A stretch of 10,408 nt of DNA from Pasteurellaceae bacterium (GTDB lineage Bacteria; Pseudomonadota; Gammaproteobacteria; Enterobacterales; Pasteurellaceae). Location of the stretch: positions 1 through 10,408 of the forward strand of contig CAAELW010000138.1 of the NCBI GenBank assembly GCA_900756875.1, given 5' to 3'. Shown here one piece after another: positions 3,415 to 10,408 of this stretch. The notes beneath the pieces are model-generated. The model was given only the letters and a program-made list of their open reading frames with translations, was not told the DNA's origin and did no database searches. Position 1 is the stretch's first letter; each line of letters starts with the position of its first letter. Made by a program: the position numbers and the translations under genes.

Positions 3415-4584
3415 ATGTCCGATCAACAAACAGATACACAAACGTCCTCAAATAATAAATCTCAACAACGTAAAAAAGGGCTTTCCATTTTTATTCTTTT
3501 GCTTCTTCTGATTGCAATCGGTTCTGCGGCTTATTGGTTTTTCTTTATTAAAGGCTTTGAAGAAACCGAAGATGCCTATGTCAGCGGCAATCAGGTAATG
3601 GTCTCATCACAAGTCGCGGGAAATATTGCGAAAATTAATGTTGATAATATGGATCCCGTACAGGCGGGCGACGTGTTATTAGAACTGGACGATACCAACG
3701 CCAAATTAAGTTTTGAGCAAGCTAAAAGCAATTTAGCCAATGCGGTTCGCCAAGTTTCTCAACTGAATTACACGGTAAAACAATTGAAATCCGCCGTTCG
3801 TGCGAATGAAATTACCCTTGCTCAAGCACAAGGAAACTTGAACCGTCGCGTTCAATTAGTCAAAGATGGGGCGATCGATAAAGAATCGTTCCAACACGCG
3901 AAAGAAGCGGTTGAACTCGCCAAAGCAAACTTAACAACTTCACAAAACCAACTTGAGGCCAATCAAGCCTTATTGTTAGACGGCCCTTTAAGTGAACAGC
4001 CGCAAATTCAAAGTGCAGTCAGTAATTTGAAACAAGCTTGGTTGAATTTAGAACGCACGAAAATCCGTAGCCCAATTAAAGGCTATGTGGCTCGTCGCAA
4101 TGCGCAAGTAGGACAAGCGGTGTCTGTTGGTGGCGCTTTAATGGCAGTCGTAACCACGGATCAAATGTGGTTAGACGCCAACTTCAAAGAAACACAATTA
4201 ACCCATATGCGAATTGGTCAGCCGGTTAAAATTCACTTCGATCTCTACGGAAAAGATAAAACTTTTGATGGTAAAGTGGTGGGAATCGAAATGGGTACGG
4301 GCAGTGCATTCTCATTATTGCCTACTCAAAATGCGACCGGTAACTGGATCAAAGTGGTGCAACGTGTGCCTGTGCGTATTCAATTAGATCCGCAACAGCT
4401 GACTGAAAACCCATTACGCATTGGGCTTTCTGCCACCGTGAAAGTGGATGTGAGTGATAGCCAAGGCGAAACCTTGCGCAACCAAGCACCAACCACAACG
4501 CTTTATTCCACCAATGTGTTGCAATATGATGAAAGTGCGGTCAATAATTTGATCGAATCCATTATTCGCGACAATAGCTATTAG
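3415..4584 (+). CDS. emrA: EmrA-type membrane fusion protein of a multidrug efflux pump
   Basis: This 389-residue protein, close to the size of E. coli EmrA, is the periplasmic adaptor linking the inner-membrane transporter EmrB to an outer-membrane TolC-type channel encoded elsewhere. A short cytoplasmic Lys/Gln-rich tail precedes a single membrane anchor at about 24-45. A lipoyl-like half-domain follows at about 51-93 (TEDAYVSGNQ, then AGDVLLELDD). A long alpha-helical hairpin spans about 95-205, and the second lipoyl half is marked by RSPIKGYVARRNAQVGQAVS. The beta-barrel region carries the EmrA-typical stretch GSAFSLLPTQNATGNWIKVV. AAGG at 3403-3406, 8 bases before the ATG, supports the start. 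The stop lies 8 bases before emrB, so the two form an operon. Family and role are secure; the exported compounds cannot be read from sequence. Confidence 0.95.
   Translation: MSDQQTDTQTSSNNKSQQRKKGLSIFILLLLLIAIGSAAYWFFFIKGFEETEDAYVSGNQVMVSSQVAGNIAKINVDNMDPVQAGDVLLELDDTNAKLSFEQAKSNLANAVRQVSQLNYTVKQLKSAVRANEITLAQAQGNLNRRVQLVKDGAIDKESFQHAKEAVELAKANLTTSQNQLEANQALLLDGPLSEQPQIQSAVSNLKQAWLNLERTKIRSPIKGYVARRNAQVGQAVSVGGALMAVVTTDQMWLDANFKETQLTHMRIGQPVKIHFDLYGKDKTFDGKVVGIEMGTGSAFSLLPTQNATGNWIKVVQRVPVRIQLDPQQLTENPLRIGLSATVKVDVSDSQGETLRNQAPTTTLYSTNVLQYDESAVNNLIESIIRDNSY
4533..4541 (+). repeat. DNA uptake signal sequence inside emrA
   Basis: Exact AAGTGCGGT core in the last codons of emrA, where it encodes part of the poorly constrained C-terminal tail. 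Confidence 0.9.
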
Positions 4585-4592
4585 GTTTCACG

Positions 4593-6119
4593 ATGTCGCA
4601 ATCTCATTTTACGCCGGTACAAGGCGGTGCACTGGTTATTCTCACGTTAGCGCTCTCACTTGCCACTTTTATGCAGGTGTTGGATTCCACCATCGCTAAC
4701 GTTGCCATTCCGACTATTGCAGGTGATTTAGGGGCTTCATCCAGCCAAGGCACATGGGTCATCACTTCGTTCGGTGTGGCCAATGCGATCTCAATTCCTA
4801 TCACCGGTTGGCTGGCAAAACGCTTCGGTGAAGTGCGGTTATTTTTAATCTCAACCTTACTTTTCGTCCTTGCCTCTTGGCTTTGTGGCATTTCACACAG
4901 TTTGGAAATGTTGATTATTTGCCGCGTCATCCAAGGTGCGGTTGCCGGTCCAATCATCCCTCTTTCGCAAAGTTTACTACTCAATAATTATCCGCCTAAA
5001 AAACGCGGCATGGCACTGGCATTTTGGTCAATGACTGTGGTGGTTGCCCCTATCTTCGGGCCCATTTTAGGCGGCTGGATCAGCGATAACATTCATTGGG
5101 GTTGGATCTTTTTCATCAATGTTCCTATTGGATTATCCGTTGTCTTAATGAGTTGGAAGATTCTAGGTAATCGAGAAAGCCAAATTTCTCATCAGCCTAT
5201 TGATACCGTTGGGCTTGTTTTATTAGTTCTAGGTGTAGGCTGCTTGCAATTAATGCTGGACCAAGGAAGAGAGCAAGATTGGTTTAATTCAACGGAGATT
5301 GTTGTTCTCACCGTGATTGCTGTTGTGTGTTTGATCGCGCTCACTATTTGGGAACTGACGGATGACAATCCCGTTGTAGATATTTCACTTTTCAAATCAC
5401 GCAACTTTAGTGTAGGCTGCCTTTCAACCAGTCTTGCCTTTTTGGTGTATTTAGGGTCGGTTGTACTTATCCCACTTCTACTCCAACAAGTCTACGGCTA
5501 CACCGCGACTTGGGCTGGGCTTGCAGCCGCCCCAGTGGGATTATTCCCAATTTTACTTTCACCAATCATCGGTAAATTAGGGCATAAAATTGATATGCGA
5601 ATTTTAGTCACAATCAGCTTTATGGTTTATGCCCTGACCTTTTATTGGCGAGCTGTAACCTTTGAGCCTGGCATGACCTTTGCTGATGTTGCATTGCCAC
5701 AATTTGTGCAAGGTTTAGCGGTTGCTTGCTTCTTTATGCCACTGACAACCATCACACTTTCTGGTTTACCACCCGAAAAAATGGCTTCAGCATCGAGCTT
5801 ATTTAATTTCCTTCGAACCCTTGCCGGATCAGTGGGAACATCCCTCACGACATTTATGTGGTATAACCGCGAAGCCGTGCATCATACTCAACTCACGGAA
5901 GCGATTAACCCATATAATCCGATTTCTCAACAGTTCTTCCAAACGATGGCAAGTTTTGGTTTAAACGAACAACAAACGGCATCATATCTCGCCAGACAAA
6001 TCACTGCTCAGGGCTTTATTATTGGCGCTAATGAAATTTTCTGGTTATCGGCTATCACATTCTTGGCATTATTTATTATCGTCTGGTTCGCCAAACCACC
6101 TTTTGGAAATCGCCATTAA
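4593..6119 (+). CDS. emrB: EmrB-type multidrug transporter (major facilitator, DHA2 family)
   Basis: This 508-residue inner-membrane protein is a proton-driven drug exporter predicted to have 14 membrane helices, and it works with EmrA and a TolC-type channel. Family motifs are visible. Helix 1 has LDSTIANVAIPTIAGDL with Asp31. Motif A is near 71-82 (TGWLAKRFGEVR). RVIQGAVAGP at 111-120 corresponds to motif B. The motif C region, GPILGG at 156-161, is typical of antiporters, followed by WGWIFFINVPIG. Length matches E. coli EmrB (about 512). It starts 8 bases after emrA, and the sequence before its ATG has only a weak TTAGG, so coupled translation with emrA is likely. A strong hairpin terminator follows 16 bases after the stop. 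The promoter and probable operator are upstream of emrA. Confidence 0.95.
   Translation: MSQSHFTPVQGGALVILTLALSLATFMQVLDSTIANVAIPTIAGDLGASSSQGTWVITSFGVANAISIPITGWLAKRFGEVRLFLISTLLFVLASWLCGISHSLEMLIICRVIQGAVAGPIIPLSQSLLLNNYPPKKRGMALAFWSMTVVVAPIFGPILGGWISDNIHWGWIFFINVPIGLSVVLMSWKILGNRESQISHQPIDTVGLVLLVLGVGCLQLMLDQGREQDWFNSTEIVVLTVIAVVCLIALTIWELTDDNPVVDISLFKSRNFSVGCLSTSLAFLVYLGSVVLIPLLLQQVYGYTATWAGLAAAPVGLFPILLSPIIGKLGHKIDMRILVTISFMVYALTFYWRAVTFEPGMTFADVALPQFVQGLAVACFFMPLTTITLSGLPPEKMASASSLFNFLRTLAGSVGTSLTTFMWYNREAVHHTQLTEAINPYNPISQQFFQTMASFGLNEQQTASYLARQITAQGFIIGANEIFWLSAITFLALFIIVWFAKPPFGNRH
4831..4839 (+). repeat. DNA uptake signal sequence inside emrB
   Basis: Exact AAGTGCGGT core followed by TATTTTT, the T-rich extension often seen after this signal. 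It encodes part of motif A (E-V-R), so it fits a conserved protein segment. Confidence 0.9.
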
Positions 6120-9168: not shown

Positions 9169-9636
9169 ATGGCAGGTATTAATAAAGTAATCATCGTGGG
9201 TAATTTAGGTAATGATCCTGAAATCCGCACGATGCCAAATGGCGAAGCGGTAGCAAATATCAGCGTGGCAACAAGTGAAAGCTGGACAGATAAAAACACG
9301 GGCGAACGTCGTGAAGTGACCGAATGGCACCGCATCGTGTTATATCGTCGTTTAGCGGAAATTGCGGGTCAATACTTACGCAAAGGTTCACAAGTTTATG
9401 TTGAAGGTCGTTTAAAAACCCGTAAATGGCAAGATAACAACGGCCAAGATCGTTACACCACTGAAATCCAAGGTGATAACTTACAAATGTTAGGTGGTCG
9501 CTCTCAAGAGATGGGCGGTTATACACCTGCACAATCAGCACCACAACCAAGCTATCAATCTCGTCCAGCACAATCTGCACCAGCTCCACAAGCTGAGCCA
9601 CCAATGGACGCATTTGATGACAACATTCCATTCTAA
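9169..9636 (+). CDS. ssb: Single-stranded DNA-binding protein
   Basis: This complete 155-residue SSB coats single-stranded DNA as a tetramer during replication, recombination and repair. Residues about 1-112 are the OB-fold, starting [18 protein letters not shown] and including [19 protein letters not shown] and [13 protein letters not shown] flexible Gln/Pro/Ala/Ser-rich tail follows from about 113 to 146. The acidic tip DAFDDNIPF is the conserved docking peptide for partner proteins such as PriA, RecQ and the polymerase chi subunit. A ribosome binding site (AGAGGA, 9159-9164) sits 4 bases before the ATG. All 12 Arg codons are CGT or CGC, the usage of a highly expressed native gene. The promoter is less clear than that of uvrA; TTGCGA (9044-9049) with CAATAT (9066-9071) is one weak possibility. 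Confidence 0.98.
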
Positions 9637-9682
9637 GTTACATTAGAAATTAAATATGGAAATACAATTCAAATGAATAAAT

Positions 9683-9712
9683 AGAAGTCTTTTAAAATAG
9701 GCTTCTTTTTTT
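9683..9712 (+). terminator. Rho-independent terminator of ssb
   Basis: AGAAGTCT (9683-9690) pairs with AGGCTTCT (9699-9706), an 8-bp stem with one G-U pair and an 8-base loop, running into a T7 tract at 9706-9712. It lies 47 bases after the ssb stop and separates ssb from the next gene. Confidence 0.82.
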
Positions 9713-9747: not shown

Positions 9748-10408
9748 ATGGATCTAAACACTTTTAGAAGAAAAACAGCTATGGTTTTACACGAATTAGA
9801 AATTGGAATAGGAAATCTAGTACTAGAACAAATTCCAGATTCTAATTTATCTGATTCTGAAACTAATAAATTAAAACCGCTGACAGTTCAAGATTTAGTG
9901 GAGCAATCATATCTAGATGATTTATTTCAGATGTTAATTCCTTCATCTAAAGATACTATTTTTAGAGAAGATATAATTGAATTAAGAAATATTTTTATAC
10001 AGAACGAAATATATAATATTAGAAATGTTATATCTCATCCTAATAGAATATTTGATTTAAATTACTGGTATAAAGTTGCTGCCTTGGCAAGTGATCCTAT
10101 TATTGAATTATTAGGTTTATCTAAGGTTAAAAAATCATTATTATCAGCTGAAAATAATCTAATTGTAGATCCTCCTGAAGATTGGATGAATAGTATCTTT
10201 AAGAAAATTCCTAACAACATCCCAGATAAATTTGAACATACTATAACAGGTCTAATTGGCAGGAATAAACTATTAGCCGATCTTAAAGAACTTCTAATAA
10301 ATAGGCTTGATCGAAGATCTTTGACCATATCCCTCGTTGCTCCAGGAGGAAATGGAAAAACAGCAATTGTATTAGAAACTTTAAGAAGAATTATTAATGA
10401 TCCATTAA
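9748..10408 (+). CDS. HEPN-like domain / STAND-type P-loop ATPase, 3' end outside the window; candidate defence protein
   Basis: The frame is open from the ATG at 9748 to the right edge (220 codons seen). TAA directly precedes the ATG in frame, and AAGAG at 9735-9739 lies 8 bases upstream, so the start is well supported. Residues about 1-140 look all-helical and contain R92-N-V-I-S-H97-P, the R-x4-H pattern with Asn after Arg found in HEPN domains, many of which are RNases. At 168-176 GLIGRNKLL resembles the G-R-x-x-L element that precedes the P-loop in STAND ATPases. Walker A is APGGNGKT, residues 198-205. The Walker B, winged-helix and sensor repeats would lie beyond the edge. Eleven of 12 Arg codons are AGA or AGG (9 AGA, 2 AGG) against none in ssb, and Ile ATA and Leu CTA are frequent. 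The gene was probably acquired. Such effector-ATPase fusions are common in phage defence, but this role is inferred and I cannot name the family. Confidence 0.72.
   Translation, partial: MDLNTFRRKTAMVLHELEIGIGNLVLEQIPDSNLSDSETNKLKPLTVQDLVEQSYLDDLFQMLIPSSKDTIFREDIIELRNIFIQNEIYNIRNVISHPNRIFDLNYWYKVAALASDPIIELLGLSKVKKSLLSAENNLIVDPPEDWMNSIFKKIPNNIPDKFEHTITGLIGRNKLLADLKELLINRLDRRSLTISLVAPGGNGKTAIVLETLRRIINDPL

Follow-up and report, generated by a model that had tools for sequence, protein, structure and literature searches.

The right end of contig CAAELW010000138.1 from a Pasteurellaceae bacterium (assembly GCA_900756875.1), studied here as a window of 10,408 nucleotides, carries the 5' part of a gene that probably encodes a single-protein, NLR-like anti-phage receptor of the bacterial HEPN-STAND-TPR-OB (cold-shock/S1) group with a putative RNase effector. 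This assignment is based on sequence motifs and their conservation, the predicted architecture of relatives, a divergent base composition and a defence-locus context. An earlier, sequence-only reading had proposed that such a gene enters at the right edge, and indeed an open reading frame starting with ATG at 9748 on the + strand reaches the edge without a stop codon; the motifs placed by that reading at residues 92-97, 171-176 and 198-205 are all present at the named residues:

9748..10408, + strand: 5' part of the HEPN-STAND gene, 220 codons, frame open at the window edge
9748..10152, + strand: N-terminal HEPN-like all-helical domain, residues 1-135, from AlphaFold2 (AF2) prediction and VIA comparison
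10021..10038, + strand: RNxxxH (R92-N-V-I-S-H97), corresponding to the HEPN Rx4-6H signature
10258..10275, + strand: GRNKLL, G171 to 176, start of the STAND NTPase
10339..10362, + strand: P-loop/Walker A, A198-PGGNGKT-205

The sequence R92-N-x3-H97 conforms to the pattern Rx4-6H with a polar residue following the arginine, which has been given as the signature of HEPN RNases (PMC3710099). Shuffling the protein 5000 times produced RN...H in 1.4% of the cases and Walker A in 0.4%, and these low rates together with conservation argue that both motifs are more than chance occurrences. RNxxxH is present in 143 of the 144 homologues retrieved, the sole exception (P0004) being a fragment of 553 residues, and [AG]PGGxGKT occurs in 140 of them. 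The Walker B motif hhhD[NS]LET, whose position falls beyond the window edge, was found in 142. Among the first 145 residues, five (E18, R92, N93, H97 and P142) are invariant in alignment A3, which comprises 62 sequences including two distant Rhizobium proteins, and T167, G168 and R172 at the start of the NTPase are invariant across the family alignment.

With regard to full-length relatives, most of which have about 890-917 residues, a HEPN-like helical bundle is predicted to be followed by a STAND/NB-ARC NTPase, a winged helix, TPR repeats and a C-terminal cold-shock-like OB fold. Walker A in the window and Walker B in the homologues, combined with NTPase, helical and winged-helix modules arranged as in NLR/Apaf-1 proteins, characterize these proteins as STAND NTPases, and the relatives possess TPR repeats after the STAND module as well as the C-terminal S1/cold-shock OB fold, both outside the part visible in the window. 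The proposal of a STAND ATPase preceded by helices that bear a HEPN-type motif is supported, and the Walker B motif, winged helix and C-terminal repeats to be looked for on that basis were found in the relatives, with the cold-shock-like OB fold in addition. In Pfam, NB-ARC was matched by 19 of 22 members (best E 2.4e-9) and NACHT by five of the 22 (best E 0.0032); NACHT as the NTPase clade (bNACHT) was therefore rejected in favor of the better fitting NB-ARC.

Assignment of the N-terminal domain to HEPN is provisional and draws on structural comparison; in its AF2 model, residues ~31-50 have low confidence. Four of the six best chains in the VIA comparison are HEPN domains, three of these four being taken by us as such. 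An hhalign comparison with seven HEPN_Swt1 members aligned the motifs in a weak match (P 0.014), three control regions giving P 0.16-0.45, and the Pfam HEPN_Swt1 profile was no significant match. Pfam HEPN models were not matched at E≤1 by five proteins, nor did they appear among the best 25 of 61 families for 22 members. Foldseek with the model of the 220 residues returned no match at E≤0.001. The best 60 of 223 and 215 matches in solved-structure searches with alignments A2 and A3 were TPR-type and other repeat proteins, with no full-length relative among them. No model of PADLOC 2.0.0 (2023) fits the whole protein, and PADLOC and NCBIfam matches are limited to weak or partial ones to the NTPase and TPR parts. 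The earlier statement that the family cannot be named holds insofar as neither a Pfam HEPN model nor a PADLOC model fitting the entire protein came up.

The family is sparse. The closest homologues among the matches listed share ~50% identity over nearly the whole fragment and at most 53% over a shorter stretch. A profile derived from the closer relatives gave 259 matches, the best 120 of which stem from Aeromonas, Pseudomonas, Yersinia, Cronobacter, Pantoea, Proteus, Citrobacter, Klebsiella and other genera and also from Escherichia fergusonii, and a protein search with the 890-residue copy on plasmid pABLAC1 (L004) gave 492 matches, most of the best 120 of which have ~890-917 residues. Two Rhizobium proteins (846 and 872 residues) match at 27-30%. 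Thirteen plasmid records matched the window fragment in tblastn, six from Acinetobacter baumannii over the entire query with 41% identity and seven from Streptomyces over ~30% of the query around the start of the NTPase. Homologues were present in one of 398 genomes drawn from the phylum, in one of 394 drawn from the order (the same genome), in three of 196 from the genus of that genome and in three of 5426 Escherichia coli genomes; the window fragment found no match in 100 related whole genomes (0/100) or in the phage collection searched. A viral contig (L003) matched at 48%, the homologous gene likewise being cut, and alignment A2 retrieved this contig again and nothing else from the viral contigs. 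There, the homologue follows tail-type genes on a small contig (L003:381-4704), and we take these tail genes to be P2-like. The site differs from the Q-A locus of P2 phages as named by Rousset et al. (PMC9122126).

The gene itself lies 3' of ssb, from which it is separated by a terminator-like hairpin:

9169..9636, + strand: ssb (Pfam SSB), conserved anchor of a variable locus, present in nine of nine same-genus genomes
9683..9706, + strand: terminator-like hairpin between ssb and the HEPN-STAND gene, one found versus 0.1 expected from shuffles

The G + C content of the HEPN-STAND gene is 28.1% versus 42-45% for the adhesin, emrAB, uvrA and ssb regions. Co-transcription with ssb was considered and rejected as unlikely in view of the hairpin and this difference. 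The adhesin region is a long open reading frame cut at the left edge (1-2970, - strand) with head-like and Ser/Ala-rich repeats, presumably a trimeric autotransporter adhesin, and two genes next to each other at 3415-6119 (+ strand) are taken by us to be an EmrA/EmrB-type efflux pair.

In the nine same-genus genomes ssb is 95-98% identical (eight genomes) or 77% identical (one genome), similarity to the window stops at or just past ssb (window 9634-9667) and the gene content 3' of ssb varies between genomes. Recognizable defence or restriction-modification genes occur on this side in five of the nine. The first scan of the locus covered ten hand-picked proteins, nine from these five loci (L021, L023, L024, L026 and L027) and one from L022:

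L021 and L023: type II cytosine methylases 3' of ssb
L024: DrmMII-type methylase, with a neighbor that has weak similarity to a type II restriction enzyme
L026: type I restriction enzyme
L027: Thoeris ThsA/ThsB

The protein scanned from L022 is an exception with weak matches only, and no defence gene was recognized 3' of ssb in L019, L020 and L025. When all 64 open reading frames of at least 120 residues in the nine ssb-side stretches were compared with PADLOC, 90 models were matched at E≤1e-30, a figure that is no gene count, the same methylases often being matched by several alternative models. The control, 80 open reading frames of at least 120 residues from elsewhere in the same nine genomes (nine stretches of 9.4 kb, one per genome, picked by position), matched no PADLOC model at this threshold. 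Across L019-L027, up to ~9.5 kb 3' of ssb, the variable locus behaves as a defence hotspot with Thoeris and type I/II restriction-modification genes. Cargo of no recognizable kind was observed at the same side in L022 (5136-6776), L025 (7057-8046) and L024 (5763-6941), and one same-genus genome holds a second partial ssb match of 81% identity (G005:C1:1205142-1205480), perhaps on a mobile element.

Homologues elsewhere are found at comparable sites. In E. coli, a homologue (WP_021574896) with 44% identity to the window fragment is flanked in a P4-like element by psu and by an integrase, the latter adjoining tRNA-Leu; the accession is the same in both genomes inspected. According to Rousset et al. 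(2022; PMC9122126), this P4 int-psu locus serves as a reservoir for anti-phage systems, and a TIR-STAND-TPR protein taken from it protects against P2-like phages. At another locus (L033) the homologue shares a stretch of ~7 kb with an integrase, with GajA (E 2.3e-200) and GajB (E 2.2e-126) of Gabija and with a GmrSD-like protein (PADLOC HEC-05, E 1.3e-84), nine of the 14 neighbors having been scanned with PADLOC. In L034 the homologue comes after an integrase, and the single neighbor scanned, an adjoining open reading frame of 2471 residues (11402-18814, - strand), had no PADLOC match at E≤1e-5. The only item noted by eye in L035 is an IS110-like transposase near the homologue. Annotated neighbors on the A. 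baumannii plasmids include a RelE/ParE-type toxin and a helix-turn-helix (HTH) protein; in L005 and L006 these are joined by DUF1643 and SMI1/KNR4 proteins, and modular exchange in these plasmid neighborhoods is likely. Location with defence or mobile genes was found at the ssb locus, in P4 and in L033, with exceptions. It is the low G + C content relative to the flanks, the ssb-side hotspot with its control, the P4 location and the Gabija and GmrSD-like neighbors that link the gene to defence.

The description of the gene as undescribed does not hold at the level of architecture because Anantharaman et al. (2013) already list the combination of HEPN, STAND-ATPase, TPR and S1. The Swt1-like HEPN row of their Table 1 (PMC3710099) gives fusions to STAND-ATPase, TPR and S1 for Npun_F6454, MED222_16016 and Desac_1927, termed 'mostly active', and the same paper mentions HEPN-STAND proteins of bacteria that carry cold-shock-like OB folds. 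The domain list is the same as in the relatives of the window gene; the likeness is one of domain lists, the HEPN_Swt1 profile not being significant. A literature search for MED222_16016 gave nothing beyond PMC3710099. Consequently, the window gene is a further member of an architecture predicted computationally in 2013 and not a new type of system. An open-access literature search, mostly of titles and abstract beginnings, found no experiment on a HEPN-STAND protein; validated DefensePredictor systems, four of which contain HEPN domains according to PMC13092281, or HEPN systems of the P4 hotspot could include the family. HEPN is given as a domain of uncharacterized systems in that hotspot by Rousset et al. 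(PMC9122126), who also name SIR2 and nuclease alternatives for STAND proteins.

Their 'TIR-NLR' from P4 (PMC9122126) resembles the window family in uniting an N-terminal effector, a STAND NTPase and C-terminal TPR repeats in one protein and in sharing the int-psu locus with the E. coli homologue, the effector being TIR instead of HEPN. Kaur et al. (2021; PMC8195603) describe systems that join HEPN to an inactivated STAND module with eroded motifs, whereas Walker A and B are retained in the window family. Coral NLR-like proteins with an N-terminal DZIP3-like HEPN domain on NACHT/NB-ARC, NB-ARC mostly being combined with TPR (PMC10236652), are similar by description, and the similarity may be convergent. 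Avs (AVAST) proteins, including the SIR2-STAND protein Avs5, share the design of a STAND-based receptor with an N-terminal effector but differ in effectors and sensors. In a Foldseek search with the full model, EfAvs5 came up at rank 15 (E 3.5e-6). Membership in Avs is unsupported: at E≤0.01 the 22 members scanned matched nine PADLOC families, none of them Avs, in a library that, as we assume, includes Avs models.

The HEPN-STAND gene is probably defensive and an RNase-type NLR with a putative activity and trigger. An infection cue, possibly foreign RNA or single-stranded DNA or else a phage protein, would be sensed by the C-terminal TPR and OB module. As suggested by the predicted fold, the NB-ARC-like STAND domain would, on binding ATP, drive a resistosome-like assembly. 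The N-terminal HEPN domains would thereby be gathered and their RNxxxH sites may form a dimeric RNase which, by analogy with other HEPN proteins, would cut RNA and stop the cell or the phage. Nucleic-acid sensing is an attractive possibility given the cold-shock-like C-terminus, which could equally place the RNase on its substrate. We regard as possible, on a tentative footing, a bacterial RNA-sensing NLR: OB fold and TPRs would read nucleic acid that is foreign or perturbed by phage, a resistosome would form through the STAND module, and HEPN domains would pair to cut RNA. If true, a single polypeptide would hold both the nucleic-acid sensor and the RNase effector, as a prokaryotic counterpart of RNase L-like immunity on an NLR architecture.

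It is unlikely that the N-terminal bundle is not a nuclease and that R, N and H are structural or form an assembly surface in an adaptor or pore-like element reminiscent of plant NLR coiled-coil domains, as R-N-x3-H is invariant in 62 sequences and lacking in a single homologue of 144, and as four of the six best VIA chains, three on our assignment, are HEPN domains. The fit of the motif to the Rx4-6H pattern with a polar residue, as for HEPN RNases (PMC3710099), points in the same direction. That the window copy is a broken remnant would accord with the visibility of just 220 of ~900 codons; these 220 codons contain neither stop nor frameshift and the family-invariant residues are intact, rendering decay improbable.

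Bacterial STAND proteins include transcriptional or metabolic regulators, and a weak NCBIfam match to an FxSxx-system TPR protein over the NTPase would suit a regulator without a defence role. Such a role is nevertheless the least probable of these alternatives in view of the patchy distribution, the divergent G + C content, the sites in a P4 satellite, on plasmids and beside integrases, and the defence hotspot 3' of ssb.

The reading as an NLR-like receptor with a HEPN effector connects what was a computational prediction in 2013 with actual genes in defence hotspots that can be cloned, such as the compact E. coli copy carried by a P4 satellite, and makes the gene a good candidate for experimental testing. 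The cold-shock-like C-terminus provides a testable nucleic-acid-sensing hypothesis, and the 3' side of ssb is marked as a defence hotspot in the genus of the window. If the assignment is confirmed, an RNase effector would join the TIR, SIR2 and nuclease effectors in the set of bacterial NLRs.
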